Positions 33,888 through 53,948 of a DNA stretch of 64,000 nucleotides are shown here, one piece after another. The stretch lies in NCBI RefSeq assembly GCF_009193295.2, contig NZ_CP059973.1, positions 3,100,001-3,164,000 of the forward strand. Direction: 5' to 3'. Every line of letters begins with the position of its first letter. Within the stretch, counting starts at the first letter, position 1. The stretch comes from Bacteroides luhongzhouii. GTDB taxonomy: Bacteria; Bacteroidota; Bacteroidia; Bacteroidales; Bacteroidaceae. The notes under the pieces are model-generated. The model did not search any database and was not told where the DNA came from. It saw only the letters and a program-made list of their open reading frames with translations. The position numbers were made by a program, and so were the translations under genes.

Positions 33888-34070
33888 CGTTTTGAGCGTT
33901 TATGAGTGACGGGTGGATTGAAAACATTGCTGCTTTCGGGCACCAATCCATTTATCAATTGTTCAAAAGTACAAATTTATTAGAAATAAACCCTTTTTCA
34001 GTGATTCTATTATGTTAATTCTTCTTTAAATCATTCTTTTCGCTTACTTTTGCAGCCGATTTTCAAAGAT

Positions 34071-34817
34071 ATGACACAATTTACGGAAGAAGAGAAAACC
34101 ATTCGCCGCATTGAACGGCGGTTTAGCAAAGGGGTGGTGCAATATGGATTGATAGAAGAAGGAGACAAAATCCTTATCGGACTGTCGGGAGGAAAAGATT
34201 CGTTGGCGCTTGTTGAGCTGTTGGGTAAACGCGCGCGTATCTATAAACCTCGCTTTTCTGTTGTTGCCGTTCATATAGTGATGAAGAATATTCCTTATCA
34301 GAGCGATATGGAATATTTGAAAGCACACTGCGAGGCGTATGGGGTACCCTTCGTGCAGTATGAGACTGCTTTTGATCCTGCTACCGATACACGCAAATCT
34401 CCTTGTTTCCTTTGTTCATGGAACCGCCGGAAAGCCCTGTTCACTGTTGCCAAGGAGCACGGATGCAATAAAATCGCTCTCGGTCACCATATGGATGATA
34501 TTTTGGAAACTTTATTGATGAATATCACTTATCAGGGGGCGTTCGGTACAATGCCGCCCCGGTTGGTGATGAAGAAGTTTGATATGACAATTATTCGTCC
34601 GATGTGTCTGGTTCACGAAGCCGATTTGATAGAATTGGCGGCTTTGCGTCATTATCAGAAGCAAGTGAAGAATTGTCCTTATGAATCGCAGTCCAGCCGT
34701 AGTGACATGAAAGGAGTTTTGCGACAACTGGAAGCGATGAATCCGGAGGCACGTTACAGCCTTTGGGGAAGCATGACCAATGTACAGGAAGAATTATTAC
34801 CAGATCAAATAGATTAA
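34071..34817 (+). CDS. TtcA-like tRNA 2-thiocytidine synthetase family (PP-loop)
   Basis: 248 aa from ATG 34071; a TACTTTTG -7 box at 34045-34052 excludes the upstream TTG. P-loop LIGLSGGKDSLALVELLG, then SPCFLCSWNRRKALF with the CxxC that holds the catalytic cluster or thiolate, and GHHMDDILETLLMN. It is a PP-loop ATP pyrophosphatase that adenylates a tRNA base for sulfur insertion (C32 in TtcA); target position is inferred. It lies 15 bp upstream of the disrupted DUF486 gene. Confidence 0.85.
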   Translation: MTQFTEEEKTIRRIERRFSKGVVQYGLIEEGDKILIGLSGGKDSLALVELLGKRARIYKPRFSVVAVHIVMKNIPYQSDMEYLKAHCEAYGVPFVQYETAFDPATDTRKSPCFLCSWNRRKALFTVAKEHGCNKIALGHHMDDILETLLMNITYQGAFGTMPPRLVMKKFDMTIIRPMCLVHEADLIELAALRHYQKQVKNCPYESQSSRSDMKGVLRQLEAMNPEARYSLWGSMTNVQEELLPDQID

Positions 34818-34832
34818 TTTGAATAGATTGTT

Positions 34833-35039
34833 ATGAAAGGATTCTATACCATTTTGTTGCTGATCGTATCCAATGTCTTTATGACATTTGCCTGGTACGG
34901 TCATTTAAAGATGAAACAGGAGTACGGCTGGTTCGCAGCTCTTCCGTTGATCGGTGTTATTACGTTTAGTTGGGCAATCGCTTTTTTTGAGTATAATAAA
35001 ACGGAAAAACCCAACTGGAAATTTAACATTTTACGTTGA
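34833..35039 (+). pseudogene. 5' fragment of host DUF486 gene, split by the integrative element
   Basis: Codons 1-54 (34833-34994) are the N-terminal half of a DUF486 (DMT-type small membrane) protein: two hydrophobic segments, MKGFYTILLLIVSNVFMTFA and WFAALPLIGVITFSWAIAFF. At the Tyr54 codon (TAT 34992-34994) the sequence leaves the gene and runs 14 codons into the element before a stop (35037-35039). The matching C-terminal half is at 46314-46526; 54 + 69 residues gives 123, the exact length of the replacement copy. Confidence 0.9.
34992..34994. other. attL crossover of the integrative element
   Basis: Host sequence TTTTTTTGAGTAT ends here and element sequence AATAAAACGG begins. TAT is the only trinucleotide shared at the attL and attR junctions in the right place, consistent with the small core (2-3 bp) used by large serine recombinases. 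The exact dinucleotide within TAT cannot be told. Confidence 0.75.
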
Positions 35040-35071
35040 TATATAATAATGTATAGTAGAATTAGAATAAT

Positions 35072-35443
35072 ATGAAAGCTCTCTACACAATTTTATTGCT
35101 TATAGTATCAAATGTCTTTATGACTTTTGCTTGGTATGGCCATTTAAAGATGAAGCAGGAATATTCTTGGTTTGCTGCTCTTCCTTTGATAGGTGTAATA
35201 GCCTTTAGTTGGTCAATAGCTTTTTTTGAGTATTCTTGTCAAATTCCAGCGAATCGCATTGGATATGTAGGTAATGGAGGACCATTTTCATTGATGCAGT
35301 TGAAAGTTCTTCAAGAAGTAATAACTCTTATTATATTCACAGTTTTTACAACTGTATTCTTTAAAGGTGAAGCTTTGCACTGGAATCATATAGCTGCCTT
35401 CGTTTGCTTGATATTGGCTGTTTATTTTGTATTTATGAAATAG
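35072..35443 (+). CDS. Complete DUF486 copy carried by the element (replacement of the broken host gene)
   Basis: 123 aa, about four membrane segments, EmrE/DMT-like. By hand alignment it differs from the split host protein at about 11 of 123 residues, mostly Ile/Val/Leu exchanges, and the DNA differs at many third positions, with more A/T. The sequence around the crossover (GCTTTTTTTGAGTATTC) is unchanged. It lies just inside attL in the same orientation as the broken gene and is followed by a hairpin terminator. It very likely restores the host function. The transporter substrate is unknown. Confidence 0.9.
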   Translation: MKALYTILLLIVSNVFMTFAWYGHLKMKQEYSWFAALPLIGVIAFSWSIAFFEYSCQIPANRIGYVGNGGPFSLMQLKVLQEVITLIIFTVFTTVFFKGEALHWNHIAAFVCLILAVYFVFMK

Positions 35444-35452
35444 TTATAGAAA

Positions 35453-35486
35453 AGAGCAGCATAAGAGTTTCCTCAAATGCTGCTCT
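35453..35486 (+). terminator. Hairpin terminator after the replacement DUF486 copy
   Basis: AGAGCAGCA (35453-35461) pairs with TGCTGCTCT (35478-35486), nine perfect base pairs, 16-nt loop. The downstream bases (GTCTTAAG) give only a weak T-tract. It may also end transcription from the leftward lipocalin gene. Confidence 0.65.
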
Positions 35487-35505
35487 GTCTTAAGTAGATT
35501 GGTAA

Positions 35506-35961
35506 TTAGTCAATCTTCTTGTAAGTGGTTGTTGTAATATCGTCCAATTCTTCGCTGCCATCTTCCATTGTGTCCCAATCCTCAAAGGCGAGAACTAACT
35601 TGGTAGCTGTAAGTTCATTGACGGTAAGGACATCTGAATAACCATCATCGTAAGAGATAGTCAGCTTATTATCTTTCAAAGACCAGCGACTTGTTTCTAT
35701 ATGCCCACCGTCCACATAGCTTTCTATGCAAGTACCGTCAGTTTTGAACTCCCATAAACCATTGGTATATGCTTCGTCAGAAGTTACTACTTCTTTACCA
35801 TTCTCCACTTTGTGAATCTTCTCCCAAGTGGACTGCCATTTACCTATAAGGTTGGCTTGTTCAATGATTGTCTGTTCATCTTCATCATCGCCGCACGCTG
35901 TAAAGTTTGCAGCTAACATGACCATTAACAAGGTCATTCCTAAGAATCTTAAAGTTTTCAT
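35506..35961 (-). CDS. Lipocalin-like lipoprotein
   Basis: 151 aa from ATG 35961 (an ATG five codons earlier exists). Signal peptide with lipobox LAANFTAC, then acidic GDDEDEQ after the Cys, the Bacteroides pattern for outer-surface lipoproteins. The body (LIGKWQSTWEKI, GLWEFKTDGTC, WSLKDNKLTISYDDG) is the up-and-down beta-strand layout of Bacteroides lipocalin-like domains. Last gene of the element's leftward cargo group. Ligand unknown. Confidence 0.7.
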   Translation of the reverse strand: MKTLRFLGMTLLMVMLAANFTACGDDEDEQTIIEQANLIGKWQSTWEKIHKVENGKEVVTSDEAYTNGLWEFKTDGTCIESYVDGGHIETSRWSLKDNKLTISYDDGYSDVLTVNELTATKLVLAFEDWDTMEDGSEELDDITTTTYKKID

Positions 35962-36013
35962 TATTAAGTTGTTCATTAGTTAGTATAATATATATTCTTC
36001 TTTATATTGTTCG

Positions 36014-36655
36014 TTATTTATATTTATATTGGCGCAAGTGCAGGTAAACAAATCTTCCATCATGATATTCTTTGCATTCTACCCAATTATTGTGACTGTC
36101 GTATTGATATTCAAATTCTTTCTTTATTTTTTTACCGTTCCACCAACTATCATGCAGAATAATATGTTCCAAGCTATTATATTTAATGATGCTTTGCTTC
36201 TTTATGCCCTTGTCGTCCTCCCAATTAGAAATTATCGTTCTTCCAGCTAAATACCCTTTATTCTCTTCTGCTTTAGTATAAGGAGCAATATCTTTAATGT
36301 TAGAACCTTCATAGATTGGAGCAGGTTGTGGATTCATATATCCTTTAAGCATATATTCTTTAATATGTACTTTACTGCCTTCAAATATTCTTGTATAAAG
36401 TCTTGATTGGAAGCCATTAAGATAGCTTATTGTATCGCAACTCGCTATCTTCCCATTTGTAAGAAGTAACTTATGTTCAAGTTCTAAACTTTGAGTTTCT
36501 AGTACACTTTTATTGGACGAGTACCATTTACTGACCTCTTTTCTACTTATAAAGAAATCCTGTTCAATAACTCCTTGAATAAATTCTCTATTATTCAAGC
36601 TGTTTAATAAATTATTAATATGTCCAAAATAAACATCTACAACTGAATACTGCAT
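36014..36655 (-). CDS. Unknown cargo protein, 213 aa
   Basis: Not recognised. Soluble. The C-terminal part is rich in Tyr/Trp strands with repeated short motifs (EHIILHDSWWNGKKIKKEF, EYQYDSHNNWVECKEY, YLHLRQYKYK) reminiscent of RHS/YD-like or MORN-like strand repeats, but no catalytic residues stand out. It starts 9 bp after the 136-aa gene, so it belongs to the same operon. A/T-rich like the rest of the element. Confidence 0.6.
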   Translation of the reverse strand: MQYSVVDVYFGHINNLLNSLNNREFIQGVIEQDFFISRKEVSKWYSSNKSVLETQSLELEHKLLLTNGKIASCDTISYLNGFQSRLYTRIFEGSKVHIKEYMLKGYMNPQPAPIYEGSNIKDIAPYTKAEENKGYLAGRTIISNWEDDKGIKKQSIIKYNSLEHIILHDSWWNGKKIKKEFEYQYDSHNNWVECKEYHDGRFVYLHLRQYKYK

Positions 36656-36664
36656 GATAATGAA

Positions 36665-37075
36665 CTATTCTAATGAGAAACCTCCCAATTGTGTATAACT
36701 CTTTAAACTATATTGAGTCTCTTTTTTAGAGTGCTTCCCACCTACCAAAAGAGTGTCAAATCCCAAAGTCATTAGCTGCCTAATAAAAGGCTTGTTTGAT
36801 AATATATATTGAGAAATTTCTCTAATTTCAGAATCTTTTAAATTATTATCGTTCTCTATTGATATTCTAAATCCACTTCTTAAAAAGAACGCACTCATTT
36901 CATGTGCATAGTTTACATCTCCAATTGTTACAGATACCTTGCAGAATCTATCTAATTCACCACAACAATAGCTATTTTTAAAATTCTGATTCATGGTATT
37001 TATTAACTTCATTCGCTCCAATGAAGTACCTACTAAAGAATTGAGTAAGTTTTTAAAGAAATCGACAATGTTCAT
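36665..37075 (-). CDS. Unknown cargo protein, 136 aa
   Basis: Not recognised. Amphipathic N-terminal helix (MNIVDFFKNLLNSLVG), a Cys pair in NSYCCGELDRFC and a mixed alpha/beta body (KPFIRQLMTLGFDTLLVGGK). No signal peptide. It begins 1 bp after the J-domain gene stops, so the two are translationally close. Its partner proteins are probably the J-domain protein and the 213-aa protein. Confidence 0.6.
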   Translation of the reverse strand: MNIVDFFKNLLNSLVGTSLERMKLINTMNQNFKNSYCCGELDRFCKVSVTIGDVNYAHEMSAFFLRSGFRISIENDNNLKDSEIREISQYILSNKPFIRQLMTLGFDTLLVGGKHSKKETQYSLKSYTQLGGFSLE

Positions 37076-37076
37076 A

Positions 37077-37322
37077 TTAAGCTAATTTATCATTTACTAA
37101 ATCCTTAATCTTTAAGAGTTCTCTGTAATTGAATCTGTTGTTATTAATCATTGTTGTTAGTTCCTCTGCTACATCTTTATTGTTGGGGTGTTTGTCTGGG
37201 TGAGCTTGTTTGATAAGCTCTTTGTATAGCTGTTTTGCTTTAGCCATGCTCTCAACAACATTGTATGCTTCATCATCTGTTGAATGATTCTTGGAATAGA
37301 ATAGTCTGGCAAATATATTCAT
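37077..37322 (-). CDS. Small J-domain (DnaJ-like) protein
   Basis: 81 aa from ATG 37322, preceded by AAAAGG. Residues about 28-72 form a J domain: AKQLYKELIKQAHPDKHPNN with the invariant His-Pro-Asp, then EELTTMINNNRFNYRELLKI as helix III/IV. No zinc or substrate-binding domain follows, so it should recruit the host DnaK to some partner. Neighbours in one operon: a 34-aa membrane peptide upstream (17 bp) and unknown proteins downstream. Confidence 0.75.
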   Translation of the reverse strand: MNIFARLFYSKNHSTDDEAYNVVESMAKAKQLYKELIKQAHPDKHPNNKDVAEELTTMINNNRFNYRELLKIKDLVNDKLA

Positions 37323-37339
37323 GATATGCCTTTTAACTA

Positions 37340-37444
37340 TTAAGAGAACAGCCATGCTGCTATTCCAATTACTACCAGAACTATAAGGATAACAAAGAAC
37401 TCTGATAATTGGGGGTCTTCCCCATTATATTGCATTTTAGTCAT
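37340..37444 (-). CDS. 34-aa single-pass membrane peptide
   Basis: ATG 37444 to TAA 37340-37342. Acidic-polar N terminus (MTKMQYNGEDPQLSE) followed by one hydrophobic helix (FFVILIVLVVIGIAAWLFS), ending at the helix. The layout is that of small regulatory or toxin-like membrane peptides. It leads the J-domain operon by 17 bp and follows the folded locus 37497-37705. No strong ribosome-binding site is visible, so translation may depend on the upstream structure. Confidence 0.5.
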   Translation of the reverse strand: MTKMQYNGEDPQLSEFFVILIVLVVIGIAAWLFS

Positions 37445-37496
37445 AATTAGGATATTTACACTCACCTGCTTCCTACGATGAATTATAAATAAAAAA

Positions 37497-37705
37497 GGTG
37501 TGGAAGCTATATTTGTTCTATCCTACATTCAGGTCTTCGCATTACCTTTGGAATGGATAAAACAATAGCCCCACACCAAGAGGTATATAGAAACCTTACA
37601 GACATAAGGTAAATATATATATCCAGTGTGGGTGCTATTGCTATCATCTTCATTCCAATATCAAAGTTGCGAAGTTTGAATGTAGAAGATAATTTCAATA
37701 ACACC
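37497..37705 (-). ncRNA. Folded locus: two inverted ~80-bp hairpin repeats flanking a third hairpin
   Basis: Hairpin 1 (37497-37577) has GGTGTGG/CCACACC arms and several inner stems. Hairpin 3 (37631-37705) has GGTG/CACC arms, TATTG/CAATA and ATCTTC/GAAGAT. Hairpin 1 and hairpin 3 resemble each other in inverted orientation, and both expose TGCGAAG or its complement in the loop, so a 7-bp loop-loop contact is possible. Hairpin 2 (37571-37631) shares its outer arm with hairpin 1 and has ACCTTA/TAAGGT inside. On the minus strand a TATCTTTG box (plus 37761-37768) precedes and a TTTTTT tract follows hairpin 1 (37491-37496). It could be an RNA or a single-strand DNA structure. A 65-codon frame across it looks spurious. 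Confidence 0.55.
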
Positions 37706-37740
37706 TTTCGTTAAATATGTCCTTCCAACTCCCTAAAGCA

Positions 37741-38105
37741 TTAGTTTATTGAAATTGGTGCAAAGATAATGAAAGGTTTTAAATCATCAGGTATGAAGTG
37801 TGGATTAATAGTAAATTCTATGCCCTCAAACATAGTCTGAATGGGATATTTAATAGGAACTACATCTGAACTCTGTAAATCCATGTGGGTATCAAATTCA
37901 CTTCTCCCCATATAAGGACTAAATTCTGAATATTCTTACCCGCCTTGAATTATAGTCTTTAAGTCTGCATATTGTTGGATATTCAAGAAGTGCTACCTGT
38001 AACATGACTAATAAGAGTTGAAATAGTTCTAAACACTGTAAACTTATGGAATTGACTTACTTCTAAAAGGCTGAAATGCCAAGCCTAAAGAATTAGACTT
38101 TAGAT
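37741..38105 (-). pseudogene. Decayed ORF of unknown function
   Basis: The last 56 codons are open (MGRSEFDTHMDLQSSDVVPI, then IKYPIQTMFEGIEFTINPHF, stop at 37741-37743). Upstream the same protein seems to continue through one stop (QYADLKTIIQGG*EYSEFSPY) and two frameshifts (NSLGLAFQPFRSKSIP, KFTVFRTISTLISHVTG). This looks like a recently broken gene and not random sequence, but I do not recognise it. Confidence 0.4.
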
Positions 38106-38191
38106 ATATCTAAGCTCAATATTCTATGGATTTGGGACAGAACCATTCAGACCACTATAAAGATGAATCTTAATAATCCTGTCCCAATTAA

Positions 38192-38779
38192 TCAGAAGCT
38201 CAAACAGTCATAAGTCTGTAAGATTTCTTCCTGTCTTAATCCCAAGTATCTTTTAGTAATGGCAACAGAACTATGGTTGAACAGTTCCATCAGCTTTACT
38301 AAAGCAAGTTCAGCATTATCGCTGTTCATATTATAGACCTGTCTACCAAAAGTCTTTCTAAGAGAATGGCAGCTAAAGTTCTTAATCTTTAGCCTGTACT
38401 TCTTCTTCACCTCTTTAAGAATGATATTGATTCTTTGGACTGTGAAGATAGTGCCTTTCTGACTTATAAGGATTGGTGCATTGATTCCAATAGGATTTAT
38501 ATGCTCGTAGCACTCTTTAATGTGCTGCTGTAATTGGGGATTCAGTCTGATAGTCCTTACCTTGCCTGTCTTCTTCTCAATTACTGTAAACTCGTCAGTA
38601 CCTAATATCTGCTTCCATCTTAGAGATAGAATATCAGATATTCTTAATCCTGTGAAGCATCCCAAAGCTATAAGGAGTGAGATTTTATAATTCTCGTCTT
38701 TGGCTAACTTTCTTATGAGGTTCATTGCATCAGACCATATAAGATAGTCTGCCGTTGTGCTTGAATATTTAAGTGACAT
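38192..38779 (-). CDS. Single-domain tyrosine recombinase
   Basis: 195 aa, catalytic domain only, without the N-terminal core-binding domain. Catalytic residues: Arg46 (TGLRISD), His138 and Arg141 (CHSLRKTFG), His169 (FNHSS), Tyr178 (KRYLGL), with a beta-hairpin Lys near 67-73. All are present, so it may be active, but a recombinase without the arm domain may serve resolution or dimer resolution and not integration. Integration is more likely done by the serine recombinase. Upstream 38780-38892 holds no gene. Confidence 0.8.
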   Translation of the reverse strand: MSLKYSSTTADYLIWSDAMNLIRKLAKDENYKISLLIALGCFTGLRISDILSLRWKQILGTDEFTVIEKKTGKVRTIRLNPQLQQHIKECYEHINPIGINAPILISQKGTIFTVQRINIILKEVKKKYRLKIKNFSCHSLRKTFGRQVYNMNSDNAELALVKLMELFNHSSVAITKRYLGLRQEEILQTYDCLSF

Positions 38780-38892
38780 AATGTTCTGTTTTATAATGAA
38801 ACGAATAGAAGTGAATATTAATTCTGAGTTGGATTTACTAACTCATTGATTACTAAAGGAACATTCACTAATAGTAGAAGTGAATATGATAA

Positions 38893-38920
38893 GGACACCC
38901 AACTTGAAAATTGAGTGCCC
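38893..38920 (-). terminator. Imperfect hairpin terminator after radC
   Basis: GGACACCCAA (38893-38902) with TTGAGTGCCC (38911-38920): a GC-rich stem with one mismatch and one bulge, followed on the minus strand by a short T/A tract. It separates radC from the tyrosine recombinase gene. Confidence 0.4.
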
Positions 38921-38929
38921 TCTACCTTA

Positions 38930-39385
38930 TTATAATTCTCCTTCGTCAGCGAAGCTATAATATCCTGCATCTGTAAGTATGAGGTGGTCTAAAACTGTAA
39001 TTCTCATTAGTCTTGCAGCTTCTTTGACCTGCTTAGTAATCTCCATATCCTGCTTGCTTGGTTTCATGCTACCACTTGGGTGATTATGTGCAAGAATGAT
39101 AGCTACTGAATTGGTGAGCAATGCAGCTTGTAGAATTACTCTGACATCAGCACAAGTTTCAGTAATTCCACCCTCTGATATAAGAGTGTAACCTAAAATT
39201 TGCTTGGCTTGGTTAAGAAACAGTACTTTGAAGTATTCCTTGTAACAGATTGTACCTTCCTTATATGTAGGAAGCAAGTATTTATAAGCATCCTCTGAAC
39301 AACTTACTTGATGCAGACTTTTAAATTTTGGTTTGTAGGACAGTTCCACTTCACCCACAGTATAATCTATATCCATAATGTACAA
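38930..39385 (-). CDS. radC: RadC-family JAB-domain protein
   Basis: 151 aa, short accessory form. JAMM/JAB metal motif: GGITETCADVRVILQAALL, then AIILAHNHPSGSMKPSKQD with the His-x-His and downstream Asp, LDHLILTDAGYYSFADEG. This short RadC is a usual passenger of Bacteroidetes mobile islands and plasmids; its biochemical role is not settled. It sits between DUF3871 and the tyrosine recombinase, with terminator-like hairpins on both sides. Confidence 0.88.
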   Translation of the reverse strand: MYIMDIDYTVGEVELSYKPKFKSLHQVSCSEDAYKYLLPTYKEGTICYKEYFKVLFLNQAKQILGYTLISEGGITETCADVRVILQAALLTNSVAIILAHNHPSGSMKPSKQDMEITKQVKEAARLMRITVLDHLILTDAGYYSFADEGEL

Positions 39386-39410
39386 TGTTTAATAAGTTGG
39401 TAGAAATAAA

Positions 39411-39440
39411 GAAAGGACACCAAGTTAATGATGCCCTTTC
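39411..39440 (-). terminator. Hairpin terminator after the DUF3871 gene
   Basis: GAAAGGACACCA (39411-39422) and TGATGCCCTTTC (39429-39440): 10 of 12 positions pair, 6-nt loop. On the minus strand it is followed by TTTCTTTATTTC. Confidence 0.55.
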
Positions 39441-39461
39441 CTCTCTCAATCAACAATCCAC

Positions 39462-40481
39462 TCAGCCCAAGAACCAAGCGTATTCACTATCTCCTAATTT
39501 GGCACGTTGAATGCCTTGTACGAACTCTGTGCAGTTAAGATTCCTCTCCAAGAAGTTATCAATGTAACTTGATTTCACAGAACCATTGAGCAGGTTTAAG
39601 AGCTGCCAGCCTGTAATGCTGTCCCCTGTACTCTTGAAATTCACATCAGAAACGAATGCTCTGCAAGCTGCATTAATTTGACTGTCTCCCAACAATAGAC
39701 GAGGTAAGCGTTTCTGTTGGTTGGGTGTAAGAGCTTGATATAATCTCATCCTGCCTATTATCTGGCAGAACTCGCTTGTAGAGATTGACATCTGCCCAAG
39801 TGTTTTTAACAGATGCAGGTCTTTGGATGGATTGTAAGCGTGGAACAGATTCAATGCTGCTGCATATAGTTCCTGTACGCTTAGGACTTCTATCTTATCC
39901 TGTAAACCGTCAGTGGTGAGCATGAGATTACTGCAAACTCTATTTCTAAATCCTATGAAGATTTTAAATCTCTCAACAGACTTCTTACTGTACAAGTTAA
40001 TCTCGTTATATGCTCTCACTCCACCAATGGATAATGCTAAACGATTACCGTATTCATCATGTACAATGGATGGAATTTCAAAGCAGAAACACATTCTCTG
40101 ATAGAACAAAGTTTTCTCTTCATCTGTCAGTTCAGATGCTTTCTTACCTAATGCACTTGGTATTCTACCATTGATAGGGTGTGAGATTCTAATCTCTGGT
40201 ATATCAAACTGTTCTCCATGAAAGTAATCCTTAGCTGCATCCACTACTGCACCTATAAAGGATTGGTGACTAATAGTTTCTTCCATTGATGCAAAACTTG
40301 GAATGATGCAGTCTTGTTGTAGGTGCTGTAAGGTTACTTCCTGTGTATTGGCTTCAATGAAATGGTTTACTCTCTTGGGTGCTGTTACTTCTTCTACAAT
40401 GATTGCTTCTTCTGCAAACTCACCCATGTTTAATGATTCTCTACGCTGTGCCATAGCTGGCATAATTACTAAATCTCTCAT
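39462..40481 (-). CDS. DUF3871 family protein
   Basis: 339 aa. The sequence (IRISHPINGRIPSALGKKAS, LYQRMCFCFEIPSIVHDEYG-like block, IGFRNRVCSNLMLTTDG, FCQIIGRMRLYQ) matches the Bacteroides DUF3871 family as I remember it; these proteins are found on plasmids and integrative elements next to radC. Soluble, function unknown, probably element maintenance or anti-restriction; that is inference. The upstream interval 40482-40839 holds a hairpin and one direct-repeat unit but no supported gene. Confidence 0.75.
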   Translation of the reverse strand: MRDLVIMPAMAQRRESLNMGEFAEEAIIVEEVTAPKRVNHFIEANTQEVTLQHLQQDCIIPSFASMEETISHQSFIGAVVDAAKDYFHGEQFDIPEIRISHPINGRIPSALGKKASELTDEEKTLFYQRMCFCFEIPSIVHDEYGNRLALSIGGVRAYNEINLYSKKSVERFKIFIGFRNRVCSNLMLTTDGLQDKIEVLSVQELYAAALNLFHAYNPSKDLHLLKTLGQMSISTSEFCQIIGRMRLYQALTPNQQKRLPRLLLGDSQINAACRAFVSDVNFKSTGDSITGWQLLNLLNGSVKSSYIDNFLERNLNCTEFVQGIQRAKLGDSEYAWFLG

Positions 40482-40527
40482 AATGAAATTGAATTAAATG
40501 GTTATTGATTGAATTGATTTAACAAGA

Positions 40528-40574
40528 ACAGACCTAAAACACAAGTGAATTTCTTCACCTGTATCTTAGGCTGT
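40528..40574. repeat. Long imperfect hairpin between DUF3871 and the Rep-like gene
   Basis: The left arm (40528-40549, core CCTAA, ACA, GTGAA) pairs with the right arm (40554-40574, TTCAC, TGT, TTAGG, TGT) as a stem of about 20 bp with mismatches and a 4-nt loop. It lies downstream of the Rep-like gene and may end or attenuate that transcript. The rest of 40575-40839 has no gene I can support; a 47-codon frame starting at the ATGA that ends the Rep-like gene looks weak. Confidence 0.5.
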
Positions 40575-40839
40575 CCTATGTCTTTCCCTAAAGATTCTTT
40601 CAAAGGGAATGAGGAGCATTAGTAAATTATTGGTAGGCTGTGGCAATAGTGCATCGTGCCTGCTCTTGGATTAATAAGAATGCTTATTCCTATCAGCTAT
40701 CAGACTACATTTTTAAAGCATTCTTTTTTATTTAAGAGCCATGAGGGGGTGTTTATGTGGGTAGGGGTGTCTCGTGTATAACTCTTTAAAATTGGAAATG
40801 CTGATAATGGTATGCTTATTGATGGTAGCTTAGACTGAT

Positions 40840-41670
40840 TCATAGGAATAGGTCTGGTAGTTCTTCCTTTTCTTTTACCTCTTGTTTCCTGCCTACCAAT
40901 CCACTTGATAATGATTTCATAAGAGCGTGCATATCCTTAACTCCCTCAAAGTTATTCTCCTTGTACTTCTTATAAATCATGCACTCCCTTGAAATGGGGT
41001 TTCCTCTGCTCTCGTTAAATGCTATCATCTGTTCAAAGTCAGCTTTCACTTCCTCCACATATTTATCTTTTGGTAGGTCTATAAGCAAACCTTTAGCCTT
41101 TAATATGATTGAATCTCCAACTTCATCTAACAAGTCCATATCCCTTAGTTGTTCTATGTAGTTAGAAATAGTTCCATGTCCCATGTGGATTAGTTCTTTC
41201 AGTTTTCTTACAGATAAGGTAATTGTATGACTGTGTGGCTCTGCTGCACTGAATAGTTTGAGTATAAATCCTCTAAGCTTTAAATCCAGTGTACTGTTAT
41301 ATGAATCGTAGAACTCTCTGCTGATTTTTCTGTAATGTCCAAAGCTGACAGGGAAGAATATATAATCTGTCCAAGTCCTGTCATTCCTGCCACTGTCCTT
41401 ATTCTGTATGCTGACTTCCCCTGTGGCTCTTAACTTGTCATTGAATGATTTGGAACTCTTACCACCTTTATAGTTGGCAGGTTTCTCTCCAACGTATGAT
41501 GCAAGCTGGTCTATCGTAGTGTCAGTGGTCAACGTATATTTGTCTGTTATCAATAGTAACACGTATGTCCTGTAAACATCAGCACAACCCAACTTTTGAA
41601 TCAGATTGTTGCTCATTACTGTATATTCCTTGAATGGTAGTTTCTCGTAACTCATAAGGCAATCGCTCAA
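40840..41670 (-). CDS. Rep-like winged-helix protein
   Basis: 276 aa, tentative. Opening YEKLPFKEYTVMSNNLIQKL and the order helix-rich N half, then LSVRKLKELIHMGHGTISNYIEQL (a helix-turn-helix) resemble replication initiators of Bacteroides plasmids and integrative elements. Highly charged Lys/Glu C terminus (KSLSSGLVGRKQEVKEKEEL). The gene is flanked by two copies of GGGGGTGTTTA (40745-40755 and 41891-41901) and lies next to the strong hairpin at 41807-41884, which would suit an origin. No nickase tyrosine motif is obvious. Confidence 0.5.
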   Translation of the reverse strand: MSDCLMSYEKLPFKEYTVMSNNLIQKLGCADVYRTYVLLLITDKYTLTTDTTIDQLASYVGEKPANYKGGKSSKSFNDKLRATGEVSIQNKDSGRNDRTWTDYIFFPVSFGHYRKISREFYDSYNSTLDLKLRGFILKLFSAAEPHSHTITLSVRKLKELIHMGHGTISNYIEQLRDMDLLDEVGDSIILKAKGLLIDLPKDKYVEEVKADFEQMIAFNESRGNPISRECMIYKKYKENNFEGVKDMHALMKSLSSGLVGRKQEVKEKEELPDLFL

Positions 41671-41809
41671 TATGTTTGATTAAAATGATTTGGTTGTTTT
41701 TTAATAAGAATCTCATTTTAGAGGAACTTAATTTGTTTGACTTCCTAAGTTCGCTCAGCTTGTTATAGAAATGATTGTTATAAATCCACATATCATTGAT
41801 TTTAGTCAC
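41579..41809 (-). CDS. Small ORF overlapping the Rep-like start (uncertain)
   Basis: 76 aa (MTKINDMWIYNNHFYNKLSE, ending SNEQQSDSKVGLC). It overlaps the first 92 bp of the Rep-like gene in another frame. The first 46 codons lie in otherwise unassigned sequence and are Lys/Asn/Leu-rich like true genes of the element; the last 30 are a shadow of the Rep-like frame. It could be a small regulator, or the true N terminus of the Rep-like protein after a frameshift. Confidence 0.25.
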   Translation of the reverse strand: MTKINDMWIYNNHFYNKLSELRKSNKLSSSKMRFLLKNNQIILIKHIERLPYELRETTIQGIYSNEQQSDSKVGLC

Positions 41810-41884
41810 TCCCAGCTTACAGATTACCTGTGCGGTGTCCGCAAGGACATTGCATAGGTCTTATTGGAATGTAGCGTGGGAGTG
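41807..41884 (+). repeat. Strong hairpin with GCAA tetraloop near the Rep-like gene
   Basis: Inner stem ACCTGTGCGGTGTCC (41826-41840), GCAA loop, GGACATTGCATAGGT (41845-41859): 15 consecutive pairs on the + strand, counting three G-U pairs. Outer stems are CACTCCCA/TGGGAGTG (41807-41814 with 41877-41884) and an imperfect GCTTACA/TGTAGC. The G-U pairs fit the + strand only, which suggests an RNA or single-strand DNA structure with defined polarity. It may be an origin, oriT or small RNA. Confidence 0.55.
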
Positions 41885-41977
41885 TAGAGAGGGGGTGTTT
41901 AGACACGCAGTAAAAAGTGAATAAGCACACCTCCCAAATTTGACAATATGAATCTCTCAGTTTCAATTTTTATCTTG

Positions 41978-42151
41978 TCAGTAAGCCAACTTCTGTAATG
42001 CGATATAATAAGTAGTAACCTTTCCATTCTTTTTTCTCCTTGTCTTTAGATAGTTATTAAGATTAGCCCACAATCCAATGTGAACCTTGTTATCTTTTAC
42101 TCCCTGTTTAAGAGCCTTAACCCTTATCTGTTCATAAGTAAATTCTTCCAT
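41978..42151 (-). CDS. 57-aa basic protein
   Basis: Starts ATG 42151 (MEEFTYEQIRVKALKQGVKD) and ends ALQKLAY, stop at 41978-41980. It is Lys/Arg-rich with helical character (LWANLNNYLKTRRKKNGKV), consistent with a small DNA-binding protein. Too short for most gene finders. The 42152-42353 interval upstream holds only a weak TATCTTTA-like box on the minus strand. Confidence 0.5.
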   Translation of the reverse strand: MEEFTYEQIRVKALKQGVKDNKVHIGLWANLNNYLKTRRKKNGKVTTYYIALQKLAY

Positions 42152-42353
42152 TTTAGATATTCTGAATAGTTTGTAAGTCCGTCAATCTGTGTGGTGGGAT
42201 TATCTGTTTGTGGTACTGTAAAGATAGTAATTCCAAAAGTGGGGAACTAATGATAAGACCACACATTTAAGAATCAGACTTTAGACTATTCAGAATGTCT
42301 AAGAACTTGGGGAGAGTAAGTCCACCTGTCACATGGACTTTATTGTTAATTGG

Positions 42354-43262
42354 TTATGCAGTTTCTACAGGCTTGTTGCTATTCTCATTCATATATTGGA
42401 ACCATTTCTCAAAATTCTTATAATATTGTTTGGCTTCAGCACTACCGTCTGGTTTCTGATTACTAAACCACACATCTTTGTCAATCATGGCAACTAACTG
42501 TTGGATTTGGTTAATCTCAGGTTTGTATTCATTGTAGAACAACTTAAATCCTTTAGCTAATCTTCCATTGTTATATGTGGATTCAGAGATTTTACTACTC
42601 TTGAAAGCTTTTAGAACTTTATCGCCTAACTCTTGGGTGGTTGCATTTAACTTTAAAGATTTAGGTAGTCTGTTTATGCCCATTTTAAGGTCTTTGGCGA
42701 CATTGGCTTTAATCTCTGCTTGTCCTAATGTGTAAAAACTATAGATTACGTCAGACTTCAATCCTGTTTCTTGAATTTGTGCTTCAATATAATCAATTCT
42801 CTCGTTTCCTGTTTGGAACTTTGATTTGCTAAAGTCTTTATAATTCCAAGGTCTGCCATTGTTTATAGAAGCTGTAAATAATGCTAAACTCATATTCTCT
42901 GGCTTCTTAATGGTTTCAGTCATTTCTTCCTCATTAAAATCAAGAAAACCTTCTACCTCCAGTATGAACATGGCTATCATTCTGTGTTGTCCATCTACAG
43001 GAGCTTTAGCTGCTGCTCTTTCAGTAGCATCTGTAACCTCTTCTGTATTCAGCATCCAGTTGTCTATTGAAAGAGGTTTGGCATTGGACTTAGGTACAAT
43101 GGAAACTTTTAATAATTTCTCTCCTGTTAAATCCTCGCTGCCAACTAACTTAATCTTACCCATTGCTGCATTGAAGCCATATTTCTCAATCATAGAATAG
43201 CACTTCTTTACATTCTCTGCTACGATTTCACGATTGCTGCCATAAAAATAAATAGTCATCAT
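42354..43262 (-). CDS. DGQHR-motif protein (ParB/DndB-like fold suspected)
   Basis: 302 aa. Central KAPVDGQHRMIAMFILEVEG contains the DGQHR signature shared by DndB-like and ParB-related domains, which bind nucleotides or act on DNA. The N-terminal part (MTIYFYGSNREIVAENVKKC) and an extended helical C-terminal half are not recognised. In elements like this, such proteins often serve partition or host-interaction roles; that is inference. Start at 43262 or the next Met at 43259. Confidence 0.55.
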   Translation of the reverse strand: MMTIYFYGSNREIVAENVKKCYSMIEKYGFNAAMGKIKLVGSEDLTGEKLLKVSIVPKSNAKPLSIDNWMLNTEEVTDATERAAAKAPVDGQHRMIAMFILEVEGFLDFNEEEMTETIKKPENMSLALFTASINNGRPWNYKDFSKSKFQTGNERIDYIEAQIQETGLKSDVIYSFYTLGQAEIKANVAKDLKMGINRLPKSLKLNATTQELGDKVLKAFKSSKISESTYNNGRLAKGFKLFYNEYKPEINQIQQLVAMIDKDVWFSNQKPDGSAEAKQYYKNFEKWFQYMNENSNKPVETA

Positions 43263-43340
43263 ATTTTCTTTGCAGTTTTTAGACTGGTGCGCTCCAGCTT
43301 TTGTTAATTTTGATATTGCAAAACTACCAGCTTCTGGGCT

Positions 43341-43485
43341 GATTAAAAGAGAGAAATTAATGAGTGGTTTTACTTCCCCTCTTAATTGTCGGCTCGTCCG
43401 CTATCGTTTTGACACTGCAAAGATGGGATATAATGGTAGGATTAAAAGAGAGAAAAAAAGTCCTGCTTTCATGTACCCTCTTAAT
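43341..43485. repeat. Two imperfect direct repeats, 99-bp period
   Basis: GATTAAAAGAGAGAAA followed some 20 bp later by CCCTCTTAAT occurs at 43341-43386 and 43440-43485. Each copy can also fold (ATTAAaAGaG with CCTCTTAAT), and each is preceded about 30 bp earlier by a TGCAAA-containing box (43316, 43416). It lies between the 293-aa gene and the DGQHR gene, in the DGQHR leader, and may be a duplicated regulatory segment. Confidence 0.6.
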
Positions 43486-43501
43486 GGTATGAAGCAGGAC
43501 T
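43459..43501 (-). terminator. Rho-independent terminator after the 293-aa gene
   Basis: AGTCCTGCTT (43459-43468) pairs with AAGCAGGACT (43492-43501), extended by CAT/ATG. On the minus strand the stem is followed directly by seven T and CTCTC, a standard terminator for the leftward gene ending at 43523. Confidence 0.85.
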
Positions 43502-43522
43502 GTGTTAATTATCAGATGTTTA

Positions 43523-44404
43523 TTAGAAATATATGCTGTTCACAGTATCAATTCTTTTGTCTTTATATTGCTTGATGTAGCCTTTTAAAACATCTTCATC
43601 ATCTGAGAATTTACTATGTTTAGATAGTTTGGTAAAGTAGATAAGCCTTGATATGAGCAACGTTTTACTGAGTGATATGGTGCTTCCTTTCTTCTGTCTG
43701 ACATTAAACTGCTTGTTATATGGCTCTAAATTGAAGAAGTCATTGAACATCTTATAGAACAGCCATATCTGAACGGATTCCTTTTCTTCTGCATGGGTGC
43801 TTATGCTGACTTGTTGGCTCTGCATCCAAGGATGTTCCTCTATCTCCTTTAGGTTATTGATGATGGTAGTAGCCAAGTAGCCTATTGCATTGGCATTGTC
43901 AATTACTATCTGATGCTTGCCCTCTACTTTTACAGAGATAGTGATAGGTTTCTTAAAACTCACTCCAAATTGGTTTATCTCCTTATGGTTGTCAGCTATG
44001 GCTTTAGCGAATTTGGTGAGCTGTTTTATTCCAATCCCTGTAGCTTTCATTCCATCCAAGCACGTTCCACAAGTATAGTCAAAGATGAACAGAAGTAGAA
44101 ACCAGAACTTATCTATATCAATTCCTAAACCTTTTAGTGTATTCTGTATGTCCTCATTGGCTATATAATCTTCGTATGTGAAGTTACCATATAGCTTATT
44201 CTGATTGTATCTTCTTATGAATAAGGGTAAGGCGGTTGTGCCATAAATATATTGTTCTCCTGTTTCATGGTCTATATCATAATCTGGTACATAAAGTACT
44301 GCTACTTCCTCCATGTATTCAAGTAACTTTATGTCTTTAGGGAAATAAGTTTCTTCAAGTCTTTCAATTGGTCTCATATCTTTGCTTATATGGTTTGGAA
44401 GCAA
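43523..44404 (-). CDS. Unknown element protein, 293 aa
   Basis: Not recognised. Start may be Met10 (44377, MRPIERLEETYFPKDIKL). It is soluble, Lys/Asn-rich, with FWFLLLFIFDYTCGTCLDG in the middle (a CxxC) and a basic region near the C terminus (KQFNVRQKKGSTISLSK). It lies 21 bp downstream of the serine recombinase gene and upstream of a clean terminator, so it probably shares the recombinase transcript and could be a directionality or accessory factor; no evidence beyond position. Confidence 0.55.
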   Translation of the reverse strand: MLPNHISKDMRPIERLEETYFPKDIKLLEYMEEVAVLYVPDYDIDHETGEQYIYGTTALPLFIRRYNQNKLYGNFTYEDYIANEDIQNTLKGLGIDIDKFWFLLLFIFDYTCGTCLDGMKATGIGIKQLTKFAKAIADNHKEINQFGVSFKKPITISVKVEGKHQIVIDNANAIGYLATTIINNLKEIEEHPWMQSQQVSISTHAEEKESVQIWLFYKMFNDFFNLEPYNKQFNVRQKKGSTISLSKTLLISRLIYFTKLSKHSKFSDDEDVLKGYIKQYKDKRIDTVNSIYF

Positions 44405-44425
44405 AGATAATTAAAAAGGATGAAG

Positions 44426-46240
44426 TTATTCCTTTTTTAATGGTCTGAGCCTACCATCCAAACCTGCTTTATGTAGTTCTTCTAAATATCTTTCTCTATA
44501 ACTAAGGTCAAGATGCAAGGCTCTTTCTTTTGCAAGGTCTGATTTAAGATATTCTTGTAAAGTCATAGTCTTTGTTTTCCTAATCATTTCTATGCTAAAG
44601 TTCTTCATATCACTGGACTTTAAAGTATCATAGTTAGCTGTTATAATTCCTTTTTCATCAATCGTCCAGTTGTCTAATAGGAGAGAAGCCATTGCAATGC
44701 TTCTGACTTTCGTAATAGCTATATAGAATTTAATTCCATTAAGGAACTGTACAATATAATATCCCTGCATGGTAGTGACAGGAATATAATTCACTCTCTC
44801 CAAATATTTATGATATAGTTCTCCTTGTTCTTCGATGCTAAGGTTTTGAAGCTTCTCTTTACCATTATTATCTTTAATCCTTTCGATGTCTGCCATCTTT
44901 TTACTCTGTGACTTTTTATATCTTATAATTTCTTTATCAATAGATTTTATCTTCTCATCTAACTGGTTCTGTTTCTCTTGGATAATGTTTAAAAGGGTAG
45001 GGTTGGTGGTTAGTAGAAACTTATTGGCATTATCTTGGCTTTCATTAGATAAGTTCTCTTTATCAAGATATAGGGCAGACAAACGTTTCTCAATTCCAGC
45101 TATTTCCTCTTGTAGCTCTGTAACTCTATTGTCTGTTTGGTTCCTAAAGAAGTTGATATATTCTGCTGTGTGCATAGATTTGAAAAGACTATATAATATT
45201 TCATTCGTAAGGTCGTAAGAAACTTCATCAATATTATATTTACAGAAGTCTGGATGAGATTTCCTATCAACACAGCTACATCTATATGTTAGTTTTGAAA
45301 TTCCTGCTGCTGGCTTTTTGTCTTTTACAGTCATGGCTCTCCCACATCTACATCTGATGATTCCTTTTAATGGATTATGATTGACTTTTCCAGTTGGAGT
45401 ATTTTTATAGTTGTTTTTAATCAGCTCTTGTGCTTTCATAAAATCCTCTTCACTGATAATAGGTTTTATTCTAACCTCGATAGTATAAGGTTCTTCTCTA
45501 CCTAATCTCTGTGTTCTTCTTCTGATTCCTCTATAAATATCACTATGGATATAGTTGCTTAGAATGGCAACAGTGCTGTAATATCCTCTAAAAGTAATAT
45601 TCCTTTCATTGAAATATCTGGCTACTGCTCCCAGTGTCTTACCAGAGTTTACTAAAGCGAAGAGTCTTTTTATATTCTCTACTTCTTCTGGTACTTCTTC
45701 TAAAATATATTTAGGACGTTTTCCATTGGGGTTAGGAACTGCTTTATATCCATAAGGTATTTTTTGGTCTACAACTGCATAAGGATAAGCTTGGAAGAGA
45801 GCTTGCTTCCCATCTTGGTTCTTCTTTTTAATATCCAATCTTTCTTGTGCTGCTGCCCATGCTTTGATAGTGAGGATAAGTATTTCTGTAATGTCTAAAA
45901 GTTTATTAGCTTCATAAATTTTACTGGGACTATCTAAGAGTATTACAGATAATCCTTTATTAATAATCTGTTGAATGTTGTAAACTGTTTCTGTTACATC
46001 TTCTTGCCTGCTCAAACGTGATAACTCAGAAATTACTATCATGTCTGCATCTTTGTAGGTTTTACTTTGTAATTCGATATAACCTTTTCTGTCTGCAACC
46101 ACACCAGATATTCCAAAGTCCTCAATAATTTCAATTAACTCATAATTGTTGTTCTCACAGAACTCCTTAATCTTTAGCTTTTGTCGAGATAAGTCTTGTT
46201 TTGTAGTAGAAACTCGTGCGTATCCTATAATTTTTATCAT
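44426..46240 (-). CDS. Large serine recombinase (integrase of the element)
   Basis: 604 aa. Catalytic resolvase domain: IGYARVSTTKQDLSRQ with Ser11 as nucleophile, ELSRLSRQED with the conserved Arg pair. A recombinase domain follows (PYGYKAVPNPNGKRPKYIL), then a zinc ribbon (CRCGRAMTV...CSC...C, about residues 300-345) and a coiled-coil region (IEKRLSALYLDKENLS), the large-serine-recombinase layout. The gene starts 75 bp from attR. It should integrate at TAT in the DUF486 target and, with a partner factor, excise. Confidence 0.92.
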   Translation of the reverse strand: MIKIIGYARVSTTKQDLSRQKLKIKEFCENNNYELIEIIEDFGISGVVADRKGYIELQSKTYKDADMIVISELSRLSRQEDVTETVYNIQQIINKGLSVILLDSPSKIYEANKLLDITEILILTIKAWAAAQERLDIKKKNQDGKQALFQAYPYAVVDQKIPYGYKAVPNPNGKRPKYILEEVPEEVENIKRLFALVNSGKTLGAVARYFNERNITFRGYYSTVAILSNYIHSDIYRGIRRRTQRLGREEPYTIEVRIKPIISEEDFMKAQELIKNNYKNTPTGKVNHNPLKGIIRCRCGRAMTVKDKKPAAGISKLTYRCSCVDRKSHPDFCKYNIDEVSYDLTNEILYSLFKSMHTAEYINFFRNQTDNRVTELQEEIAGIEKRLSALYLDKENLSNESQDNANKFLLTTNPTLLNIIQEKQNQLDEKIKSIDKEIIRYKKSQSKKMADIERIKDNNGKEKLQNLSIEEQGELYHKYLERVNYIPVTTMQGYYIVQFLNGIKFYIAITKVRSIAMASLLLDNWTIDEKGIITANYDTLKSSDMKNFSIEMIRKTKTMTLQEYLKSDLAKERALHLDLSYRERYLEELHKAGLDGRLRPLKKE

Positions 46241-46263
46241 AATGTAATATATTGATTATGAAG

Positions 46264-46271
46264 CAAATATA
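46264..46271 (-). promoter_or_regulatory. -7 box of the serine recombinase, next to attR
   Basis: Minus-strand TATATTTG, about 24 bp before the recombinase ATG and about 43 bp from attR. The -33 region still lies within the element, so expression does not depend on the insertion site. Confidence 0.55.
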
Positions 46272-46313
46272 GGTATAAAATTTCACTTGGGCAAGTCTAT
46301 TTAGTTAAGTGAA

Positions 46314-46316
46314 TAT
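46314..46316. other. attR crossover of the integrative element
   Basis: Element sequence TTTAGTTAAGTGAA ends and host sequence TATTCCTGTCAG begins. It matches the TAT of attL at 34992-34994. Joining the outer halves gives an uninterrupted 123-codon DUF486 gene. Confidence 0.75.
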
Positions 46317-46526
46317 TCCTGTCAGATACCAGCCAATCGTATCGGCTTTATAGGTAATGGAGGACCGTTTTCACTGATGCAGTTGAAAGTCATCCAAGAG
46401 GTGATAACACTTATTATTTTTACAGTGTTCACTACTATCTTCTTTAAAGGCGAAGCGTTACATTGGAATCATTTGGCTGCGTTCGTTTGTTTGATTGCGG
46501 CGGTGTATTTTGTGTTTATGAAATAA
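46314..46526 (+). pseudogene. 3' fragment of host DUF486 gene
   Basis: Codons 54-123 plus stop: after TAT, SCQIPANRIGFIGNGGPFSL and ending AAVYFVFMK, stop at 46524-46526. In frame with the 5' fragment at 34833-34994 once the element is removed. No start codon and no promoter remain in front, so it is silent. Its last 69 bp overlap the 3' end of the leftward RND gene. Confidence 0.92.
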
Positions 46527-49500: not shown

Positions 49501-49745
49501 CCAACCACTGATGAGACCATTCCTTCTATTTTAGAGGTAATTTCCTGTTCAATTACCCGTGGTGATGCTCCCGGCCAGTTGAACGAGACGTTCAACTGCT
49601 TTCCCTGTTTCGGCGTAGGATTATAAGCGACTCGCAGTAGCGGTACCAGCGCTATTCCAATCACCATCAATACCGCCATAATCAGTATGAGGGAGAAGCT
49701 GGGGATCCGCTCTAAAAAGCCTTTTTTTGTTATATCTTTACTCAT
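46458..49745 (-). CDS. RND efflux transporter, second subunit
   Basis: 1095 aa. Twelve-helix RND layout with two large periplasmic loops: N-terminal IPSFSLILIMAVLMVIGIAL, TM4 GVAVSFGIMIDTTIVMVDH with the proton-relay Asp, and a second set near LVLLSGLVVNAAIYIINEYN, where the usual Asp of TM10 is replaced. A degenerate second half suggests a partner in a mixed trimer. It is translated 11 bp after the other RND gene. The 3' end overlaps the DUF486 gene tail by 69 bp. Export substrate unknown; hydrophobic drugs or metals are typical. Confidence 0.88.
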   Translation of the reverse strand: MSKDITKKGFLERIPSFSLILIMAVLMVIGIALVPLLRVAYNPTPKQGKQLNVSFNWPGASPRVIEQEITSKIEGMVSSVVGVEKTSSTSSYGSGNVAIELKENASVSAVRFEISSLLKQVAGKLPEGAGYPSLSGGDVGSGMKQNSRQVLSYIINADMEPTNIQNYVERNIKPYLTQIDYVREVTVSGAPPTYLDIEYDPTELQRYGLESNIITSGLQNFLGQRSIVGDIDKIDRNGNKERITLLLETEPLGSDIGKTPLTTIEGKIIYLDNIAKLNYKKRRESNFYRINGLNTINLSISADADVNIIKASSELRKKMEEVQANLSDGFYISLTYDAAKDVLKELNKLIKRTFLSLLILFLFIWISSRSGRYLSIIAVALFANVLISVIFFYLFDIELNLISLTGVAVSFGIMIDTTIVMVDHYSYYRNRSVFIAILAALLTTIGSLVIIFFMPDYVRGTLNDFATIIIINLVVALFVALFFVPAIIDRNGLNRRQEKRDYRRCRRIIKWNKFYNYYITFTQKHKWIYITILVLLFGIPLNQLPRELGRSHYFYGNKEKPELKWYEVVYNKTIGSEFYQNKLRQPLEKVTGGTLHLFSSTQSSRTFAQSDYDVKLRISAKLTEKGDAELLNQKMWQMDHFLAKYKEIKKFVTQVNGESGSIEVEFTDEYKYGAFPQHLESQVIREALSIGGVDWSTTGVSEKGFSNSLTLGKSKSCRIGLSGYNYDYLYKYAEMVIEKIKNNKRVTNIDIELGGSGDYVNQDNATDEMYIKYDMKKIALYDLNLNQGYSALSALLNEGSVGTYRNKDQYIDIDCHSSLRDKFDVWHLMNSYINVGDNPICYAHIGEIGRRSVSNQITKKNQEYSLDVAFDYMGTYELSDQFIKKTTEEVNAALPVGFRVVNTSYGWYDDKGTQYWLILLIVVIIFFTCSILFESLRQPLVIISLIPISFIGTFLTFYFSGTNFGTGGFASLVLLSGLVVNAAIYIINEYNGIRSNCRYRAKPLPPVKLYVKAYNHKIVAVLLTVLSTVLGLVPFLIDGPQAEAFWFSFAIGTIGGLLFSIIALVFFMPILMPLFHKHKIHRRNQTNERSQMIPM

Positions 49746-49756
49746 AAGCAGCAGGA

Positions 49757-52807: not shown

Positions 52808-52863
52808 ACTTTTAGGGATTAAGGGTTCGCCAATTGTGTGTTGTAAGCTATAAGTTGTGTCTT

Positions 52864-53943: not shown

Positions 53944-53948
53944 AGCTT

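Follow-up and report, generated by a model that had tools for sequence, protein, structure and literature searches.

The closest described systems are the recA mobile elements (RMEs) of Vibrio, as set out in the accessible text of two reports (PMC4405046, PMC4334540). In Vibrio cholerae S24 the RME is inserted site-specifically, splits recA and carries a complete, divergent recA, and in VpRME of V. parahaemolyticus 090-96 the carried recA adjoins the truncated 5' part and runs in the same direction. The carried gene lies at one end of the element and differs from the host copy by 23 to 24%; the elements are approximately 30 to 33 kb long and encode an integrase of the phage-integrase family. 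For the V. cholerae RME, the host gene becomes intact again upon excision, and the carried recA is functional. An RME has also been found to enter plasmid-borne recA in both orientations. Here we analyze a locus of Bacteroides luhongzhouii in which a DUF486 (PF04342) gene adjoining a TtcA-like gene is cut by an 11,322-bp element with a large serine recombinase, and in which a complete second DUF486 gene lies just inside the element. The window, by which we mean the whole stretch of 64,000 nucleotides that was analyzed, spans positions 3100001 to 3164000 of contig NZ_CP059973.1, and the host genome is a single contig of 5.76 Mb. Comparison with other genomes makes it very probable that this is a site-specific integrative element that breaks DUF486 and brings a complete substitute, an insertion of the disrupt-and-replace type.

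The locus resembles the RMEs in that a single site inside a conserved coding gene is used and a complete homologue lies at the element end next to the 5' part of that gene, here in all nine elements found. It differs in having a large serine recombinase, a size of 11.3 to 14.3 kb (20.2 kb in one distant genome, G517), DUF486 as the target, hosts within Bacteroidales and one orientation in nine of nine cases. The DUF486 element thus appears to work like an RME without being a member of that group, given its PF04342 target and its serine recombinase. Other known systems share parts of the layout. An insert in the thymidylate synthetase gene of Clostridium difficile carries an active version of that gene (Knetsch 2011, as cited in PMC4405046); according to the accessible part of the citing report it likewise breaks a gene and holds a working version, but measures 4.2 kb. 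Streptococcal integrative and conjugative elements with serine integrases insert in rumA, hsdM, mutT and traG (PMC4701971). These are also site-specific serine integrases acting inside protein-coding genes, but in the available text of that source the elements disrupt the gene or alter its 3' end, and no full replacement copy is described there. The tRNA and tmRNA islands of Islander use tyrosine integrases, regenerate the target and leave a displaced fragment that marks the other end (PMC4383910). There too the island sequence restores a split target, but the accessible portion of that source mentions no separate, complete and divergent gene. Nor is a full replacement gene described in the accessible parts of PMC12884075, PMC9345347 and PMC3146451. 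The view in the initial annotation of this locus that most known cases restore only one end of the target gene has its exceptions, since RMEs carry a complete recA (PMC4405046, PMC4334540, both as far as their accessible text goes). The open-licence literature, a scope beyond which lie most subscription papers and bioRxiv, yielded no description of integration into DUF486 and none of a serine-recombinase element that carries an entire replacement gene.

When joined, the two halves of the host gene form a single open DUF486 gene of 123 codons (Table 1). The initial annotation had joined them in frame at TAT; the open join stands, while the crossover most likely falls on the GA of the preceding Glu codon, as discussed below. 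The serine-recombinase element proposed to lie between the halves was confirmed, with matches of its recombinase to PF00239 Resolvase (77.8 bits) and PF07508 Recombinase (46.4 bits) and a zinc-ribbon match of 23.0 bits, slightly below the cut-off of 25.3. The complete DUF486 open reading frame (ORF) begins 81 bp inward of the left end of the element and matches Pfam DMT_6 with an E value of 5.6e-44. Its identity to the joined broken gene, estimated by hand at about 91% for a full copy just inside attL, was measured as 91.1% in protein and 81.6% in DNA. A repeat finder pairs the carried copy with the broken halves as direct repeats of 216 nt (82%) and 171 nt (81%). Three DUF486 matches are present in the whole genome, namely the 5' half, the carried copy and the 3' half, and since all three are at this locus, no separate paralogue fits the carried copy better.

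The same arrangement recurs in other genomes. A scan of GTDB contigs with the recombinase returned eight loci, seven at 97 to 100% identity and one weak match from Clostridiaceae (L064, 24%). The seven are from Phocaeicola massiliensis DSM 17679, Bacteroides salyersiae DSM 18765, B. faecalis KCTC 15687, two metagenome-assembled genomes, Mediterranea massiliensis and B. timonensis. With the window included, all eight near-identical elements have a DUF486 5' half, a complete copy and a 3' half, and the insertion is at the same Glu codon in each. Their sizes range from 11.3 to 14.3 kb, not counting the elements of G824 and G820, which are broken across contigs. A TtcA-like neighbor is found in seven of the eight cases, G824 having none in the 8 kb fetched. 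The ninth element was found in G517, a genome of another family, where a recombinase of 39% identity (37% by BLAST) belongs to an element of 20,218 bp that cuts DUF486 at the same codons beside a TtcA-like gene and holds a complete copy that starts 80 bp in from the left end. Orientation and codon are identical in 9/9 elements, in agreement with the earlier proposal that a conserved coding site is used repeatedly. The recurrence in eight near-identical elements and a distant ninth excludes chance. By whole-genome search the element is present in 5 of 158 genomes of the window's genus. Its left end was strongly matched in 4 of 61 genomes of the genus of G080 (G080, G888, G930 and G062), with one further match of 30 bp; identical contig numbers and positions indicate that the first three are the same as G826, G825 and G824, respectively.

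The position of the carried gene is equally constant. It starts 80 to 83 bp after the crossover core in all nine elements, in the direction of the host gene, and is separated from the stop of the ORF formed by fusion of the 5' half with the element end by 32 to 34 bp in the eight near-identical elements and by 61 bp in G517. The cargo beside it varies between elements, whereas the carried gene does not. One could suppose that DUF486, which encodes a transporter-like protein, is ordinary cargo with its own benefit and that its kinship to the target is incidental, a view that would suit both the lack of DUF486 in a good part of the relatives and the free variation of the other cargo, some of which is defence-like. 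Nevertheless, the gene is always of the target's family and keeps its place and direction in 9/9 elements while the neighboring cargo changes, and in G517 that slot is filled by a copy of a different DUF486 clade. We therefore consider ordinary cargo an unlikely explanation.

Uninterrupted genes, which the initial annotation expected to exist, were found in related genomes. A DUF486 match is present in 244 of 301 family genomes and is the single match in 240 of the 244, and an intact DUF486 lies directly behind a TtcA-like gene in records of B. finegoldii and Parabacteroides distasonis; the P. distasonis relative of the upstream host gene is annotated as TtcA family. The predominance of single matches also bears on whether the complete gene could be a native tandem paralogue beside the element, or an assembly artefact. 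While the complete gene does adjoin the broken 5' half, it lies behind an attP arm and a leader of the element, and the arrangement recurs in nine assemblies, the window genome being one contig. Moreover, the carried copies of the eight near-identical elements are 92 to 100% identical in protein across hosts whose joined genes are 61 to 93% identical. A native paralogue or artefact is thus extremely improbable and can be taken as refuted for practical purposes.

Selection on the carried gene was assessed from the ratio of nonsynonymous to synonymous divergence (dN/dS) among nine carried-type genes, the eight copies of the near-identical elements and the single DUF486 gene of G062. After the four pairs with dS under 0.05 were dropped, the remaining 32 of 36 pairs had a median dN/dS of 0.075 and a maximum of 0.167; dS reaches 0.29 among the eight copies and 0.49 with G062. 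The carried copies are under strong purifying selection. Distances between recombinases agree with those between carried genes (Mantel 0.90, 3/5000 permutations), which indicates that the two travel together.

The G062 genome, of the genus Phocaeicola, provides a case in which the copy appears to have been left behind. Its one DUF486 match and the carried copy of the window have 96.7% protein identity and 92.4% DNA identity. Between its TtcA-like gene and this DUF486 lie a shrunken older 5' half, with gaps of 12 and 1 nt, and the left end of the element; the best alignment score of the 5'-half remnant was matched by none of 500 shuffles. No right arm was present in the 40 kb fetched and no element body was found, a weak partial recombinase match being the only one elsewhere, and the genes lying farther downstream correspond to the ones that follow the 3' half in P. 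massiliensis. These remnants next to a sole gene of the carried type indicate that the carried copy outlived its element and became the resident gene. The same data bear on the idea that the carried copy is a passive relic, a neighboring DUF486 picked up by imprecise excision that persists because it is harmless. The copy does occupy the very end at which the target could be captured by aberrant excision or recombination, and imprecise excision may be the way in which it was first gained. As an account of why it persists, however, a passive relic is quite improbable in view of purifying selection over substantial synonymous divergence, the two source clades of the copies and the sole DUF486 match in G062.

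The origin of the carried copies was examined using a protein tree of 57 rows. The eight copies and the G062 gene fall in one unresolved group with the window host gene and its native kin, and the G517 copy groups with three other natives (97/85 support) in a separate DUF486 clade. An approximately unbiased (AU) test rejected a single clade of the G517 copy with the others (p 0.019) but did not reject one clade for the eight copies (p 0.45 and 0.50, with or without G062). The position of the G517 copy outside the clade of the others implies that the slot was filled at least twice, or that the copy was once exchanged. A broader scenario, which we regard as about evenly balanced between right and wrong, is that a recombinase clade settled on the Glu-Tyr codons of DUF486, that the full gene was captured at least twice in the same slot, and that a recurrent, self-complementing form of insertion evolved in which decaying elements swap alleles of a core gene across genera.

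The suggestion that the carried copy had been recoded to escape the recombinase was not upheld. Identity to the targeted sites averages 0.70 for the nine carried copies and 0.69 for untargeted genes (39 rows), so that the carried sites are as close to the targeted ones as native genes are. The 19 positions invariant in eight targeted sites are also invariant in all 48 other rows; because the sites were found by the GARTAY motif, the core is invariant by construction and the invariants are uninformative on recombinase preference. The carried copy differs from the host gene because it derives from another DUF486 lineage. With its att region not recoded, it may be usable as an attB, and the proposed role as a second attachment site that allows stacking is possible in principle; a second insertion in the carried copy was seen in none of the nine elements.

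Comparison of the element ends was used to locate the crossover. In 8/8 near-identical elements attL reads GAG-TAT followed by the left end of the element, while attR differs at the sixth base in B. faecalis (TAC) and at the third base in the window (GAA), and the base preceding GA varies at both att ends. Together these differences leave only GA or TA as the core, and they rule out TAT as the crossover, since B. faecalis has TAC in attR against TAT in attL and the window has GAA against GAG. In the attP arms of the window GA is the best center of symmetry, with 20/34 positions matching and 4 of 10,000 shuffles as good; the same center and count were obtained for G517 (5 of 10,000 shuffles as good), and in the other seven elements 19 to 22 of 34 arm positions match about GA. 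The single orientation in 9/9 elements favors GA over TA, because a palindromic TA would not enforce orientation. The two natives nearest the window host gene (L101 and L102) read GAA, as a GA core predicts. One observation speaks against a GA core without being decisive, in that both ends of the P. massiliensis element read GAG, although the natives close to its host gene have GAA. From these alignments the GA of the conserved Glu codon, just before TAT, is strongly indicated as the crossover core.

More distant relatives of the recombinase were also surveyed. An order-wide search of 393 genomes gave few relatives, and those in G420, G724 (the second one), G699, G377 (two) and G801 were rejected as further cases, as the stretches fetched contain neither DUF486 nor any clear target that is split. 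A recombinase protein search gave 609 relatives at E <= 1e-60 among 7996 candidates scored; among the 120 matches listed, 26 are 79 to 100% identical over their full length, two are partial and 92 are 47 to 51% identical, including Butyricimonas. In an IMG/VR contig (L153:1995-4131) that looks phage-like when its ORFs are judged by eye, a recombinase 37 to 44% identical to the relatives studied here adjoins a DUF486 3' half that begins at the same Glu-Tyr codons, the opposite end lying outside the contig. Seven of the eight viral loci with recombinase matches have no DUF486. Scans of viral contigs with three single recombinases, and a search of plasmids and phages with P0042, gave nothing useful.

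Screening for the split-plus-complete pattern itself gave a consistent picture. PF04342 matches occur in 206 of the 393 order genomes, with a split gene and a complete one in G000 and G517 only; a second match in G615, below the family cut-off, and weak single matches were left aside. G388 was rejected as a segmental duplication in which one copy has decayed, G505 and G399 as frameshifted or deleted copies, G520 for internal stops (judged from the match table alone), and G230 and G231 as fragments at contig ends. In G388 (L176-L177) the duplicated block includes DUF486, its two copies, one of them decayed, are approximately 19 kb apart, and no recombinase match is present; the neighboring gene in the block is presumably phosphatidylserine-decarboxylase-like. 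Element DNA was found in no phage records and in three plasmid records, where the match is to DUF486 itself or to 52 bp only. A complete DUF486 is also present in five contigs of phages or viruses (L184-L188), which were rejected for want of a match to the recombinases; in L184 the gene seems to belong to the host and to flank a prophage with a tyrosine integrase. Two Acinetobacter phage records, and plasmid hits beyond the two described next, were left aside. Two records labeled as plasmids (B. finegoldii and P. distasonis) were likewise rejected, the gene being intact behind the TtcA-like gene with no element left end. In the B. finegoldii record (L189:4001-5366) an annotated site-specific integrase comes after the intact DUF486 on the opposite strand, and the search made showed no relationship between it and the serine recombinases.

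Several observations weigh against an insertion that breaks and replaces DUF486, or limit how far that account extends. DUF486 is not universal, with no match in 57 of 301 family genomes and in 32 of the 169 of good quality, and its loss may therefore cost little. Fixation of the carried copy is known from one draft genome, G062. A third native near the window gene (L100) reads GAG and not GAA. Six of the seven distant recombinase relatives examined have no DUF486 in the fetched stretch, G517 being the exception, and the strategy is therefore not general to the whole recombinase family. The bootstrap of the tree had not settled, and the group submitted to the AU test was picked after the identities were seen. 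Finally, with regard to transfer between cells, no relaxase or virion gene was recognized among the scanned window ORFs: eight non-DUF486 ORFs gave no relaxase or conjugation family against Pfam, a search that short or novel relaxases could escape, and ten ORFs scanned against PHROGs gave no virion family. For three further cargo ORFs, the scan covered PHROGs alone (two) or NCBIfam alone (one).

Disrupt-and-replace insertion, as first proposed for this locus, is nevertheless strongly supported by the comparison, in which a full and selectively maintained copy lies by the 5' half in 9/9 elements. The large serine recombinase would recombine the attP of the circular element with an attB located midway along DUF486, crossing at the GA of the conserved Glu codon, and the insertion would cut the gene in two, as the comparison of interrupted and uninterrupted loci shows. 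Flanked by a short leader and a hairpin resembling a terminator, the carried gene would thereby be set down 80 to 83 bp inside the end that meets the host 5' half, in the host direction, as is seen in the elements compared. On landing, its transcription could be driven by the host operon or by the leader that it brings along. Its position, the strong purifying selection and G062 suggest that it makes up for the broken gene. Because a complete spare copy lies beside the break, the cell probably never loses DUF486, a small membrane-protein gene, and on the strength of the selection data and G062 the carried copy would pay the cost of the disruption. Excision between attL and attR should rejoin an intact host gene, the joined frame being open in 9/9 elements. 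Where the element decays instead, the carried copy may remain as the sole DUF486 gene of the cell, as observed once, in G062.

Table 1. Features of the split DUF486 locus and of the inserted element (window coordinates)
Feature	Position	Strand	Basis or remark
TtcA-like upstream host gene, PP-loop (ATP_bind_3)	34050..34817	+	15 bp before start of broken DUF486
Host DUF486 5' half, GA core (34989-34990) at its end	34833..34990	+	ORF, Pfam, genome search, joined reading frame
Fusion ORF, 68 codons: 5' half and in-frame element left end	34833..35039	+	Stop 32 bp before carried ATG
attP right arm (in attL)	34991..35024	+	20/34 positions match reverse complement of left arm, center GA
Complete carried DUF486 copy, 123 aa	35072..35443	+	Pfam, comparison, selection analysis
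Terminator-like hairpin 3' of carried gene	35453..35486	+	56 nt: -20.6 kcal/mol, z -5.4; similar sequence in G062
Variable cargo, 4 ORFs (156, 213, 136 and 92 aa)	35506..37355	-	92-aa ORF DnaJ-like, below cut-off
Short tyrosine-recombinase-like ORF, 195 aa	38192..38779	-	97-99% identical in six other elements
RadC-like JAB ORF, 151 aa	38930..39385	-	88-95% identical in four other elements
DUF3871 ORF, 339 aa, element backbone	39462..40481	-	Family match, cross-element comparison
Backbone ORF, 276 aa	40840..41670	-	Cross-element comparison
Backbone ORF, 302 aa	42354..43262	-	~30% relative in G517
Backbone ORF adjoining recombinase, 293 aa	43523..44404	-	~33% relative in G517
Large serine recombinase, 604 aa	44426..46240	-	Resolvase, Recombinase, weak Zn ribbon
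attP left arm (in attR)	46277..46310	+	att comparison, arm symmetry
Host DUF486 3' half, GA core (46311-46312) at its start	46311..46526	+	Genome search, joined reading frame

The remaining features of the element and its surroundings are as follows. The short tyrosine-type ORF of Table 1 is a second recombinase-like gene within the element and consists of a catalytic domain only. The elements of B. salyersiae (L086) and B. timonensis (L094) encode a 617-aa protein with NERD and UvrD-helicase matches, a candidate defence gene. In G517, the cargo between the carried DUF486 and the recombinase (L142-L143) is a cluster with family matches to E1-like, E2/E1/JAB-like and MBL-fold proteins, which we take to resemble ubiquitin-like conjugation defence modules. 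No Rfam matches were found in window positions 33000 to 60000. Beyond the DUF486 3' half lies an RND efflux operon (46458-55433, minus strand) with two AcrB-type pumps, an HlyD-type adaptor and an outer-membrane channel, and the last gene of this operon overlaps the 3' half on the opposite strand by 69 bp. The DNA that follows the 3' half in B. salyersiae, B. faecalis, B. timonensis and Mediterranea matches the window from 59.3 kb, indicating that the intervening stretch differs among relatives.

With respect to the recA precedents, the recombinase class, the target, the breadth and the evidence for fixation are new here. The DUF486 elements go beyond the RMEs in the co-inheritance of recombinase and copy across genera and in fixation of the copy after loss of the element, both known here from sequence alone. 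The occurrence of one layout both with a phage-family integrase, in recA, and with the serine recombinase studied here suggests convergent evolution. Most insertions of mobile elements are at places of little harm, in tRNA genes and at gene ends; an element that brings a full substitute is able to exploit a conserved coding site in the middle of a gene, and on decay can swap the host allele for its own. Since the element is compact (11 kb), is present in named type strains and has its core placed at two bases, integration, excision and complementation are all directly testable. The locus may also offer a naturally compensated insertion site, together with its recombinase, for Bacteroides genetics.

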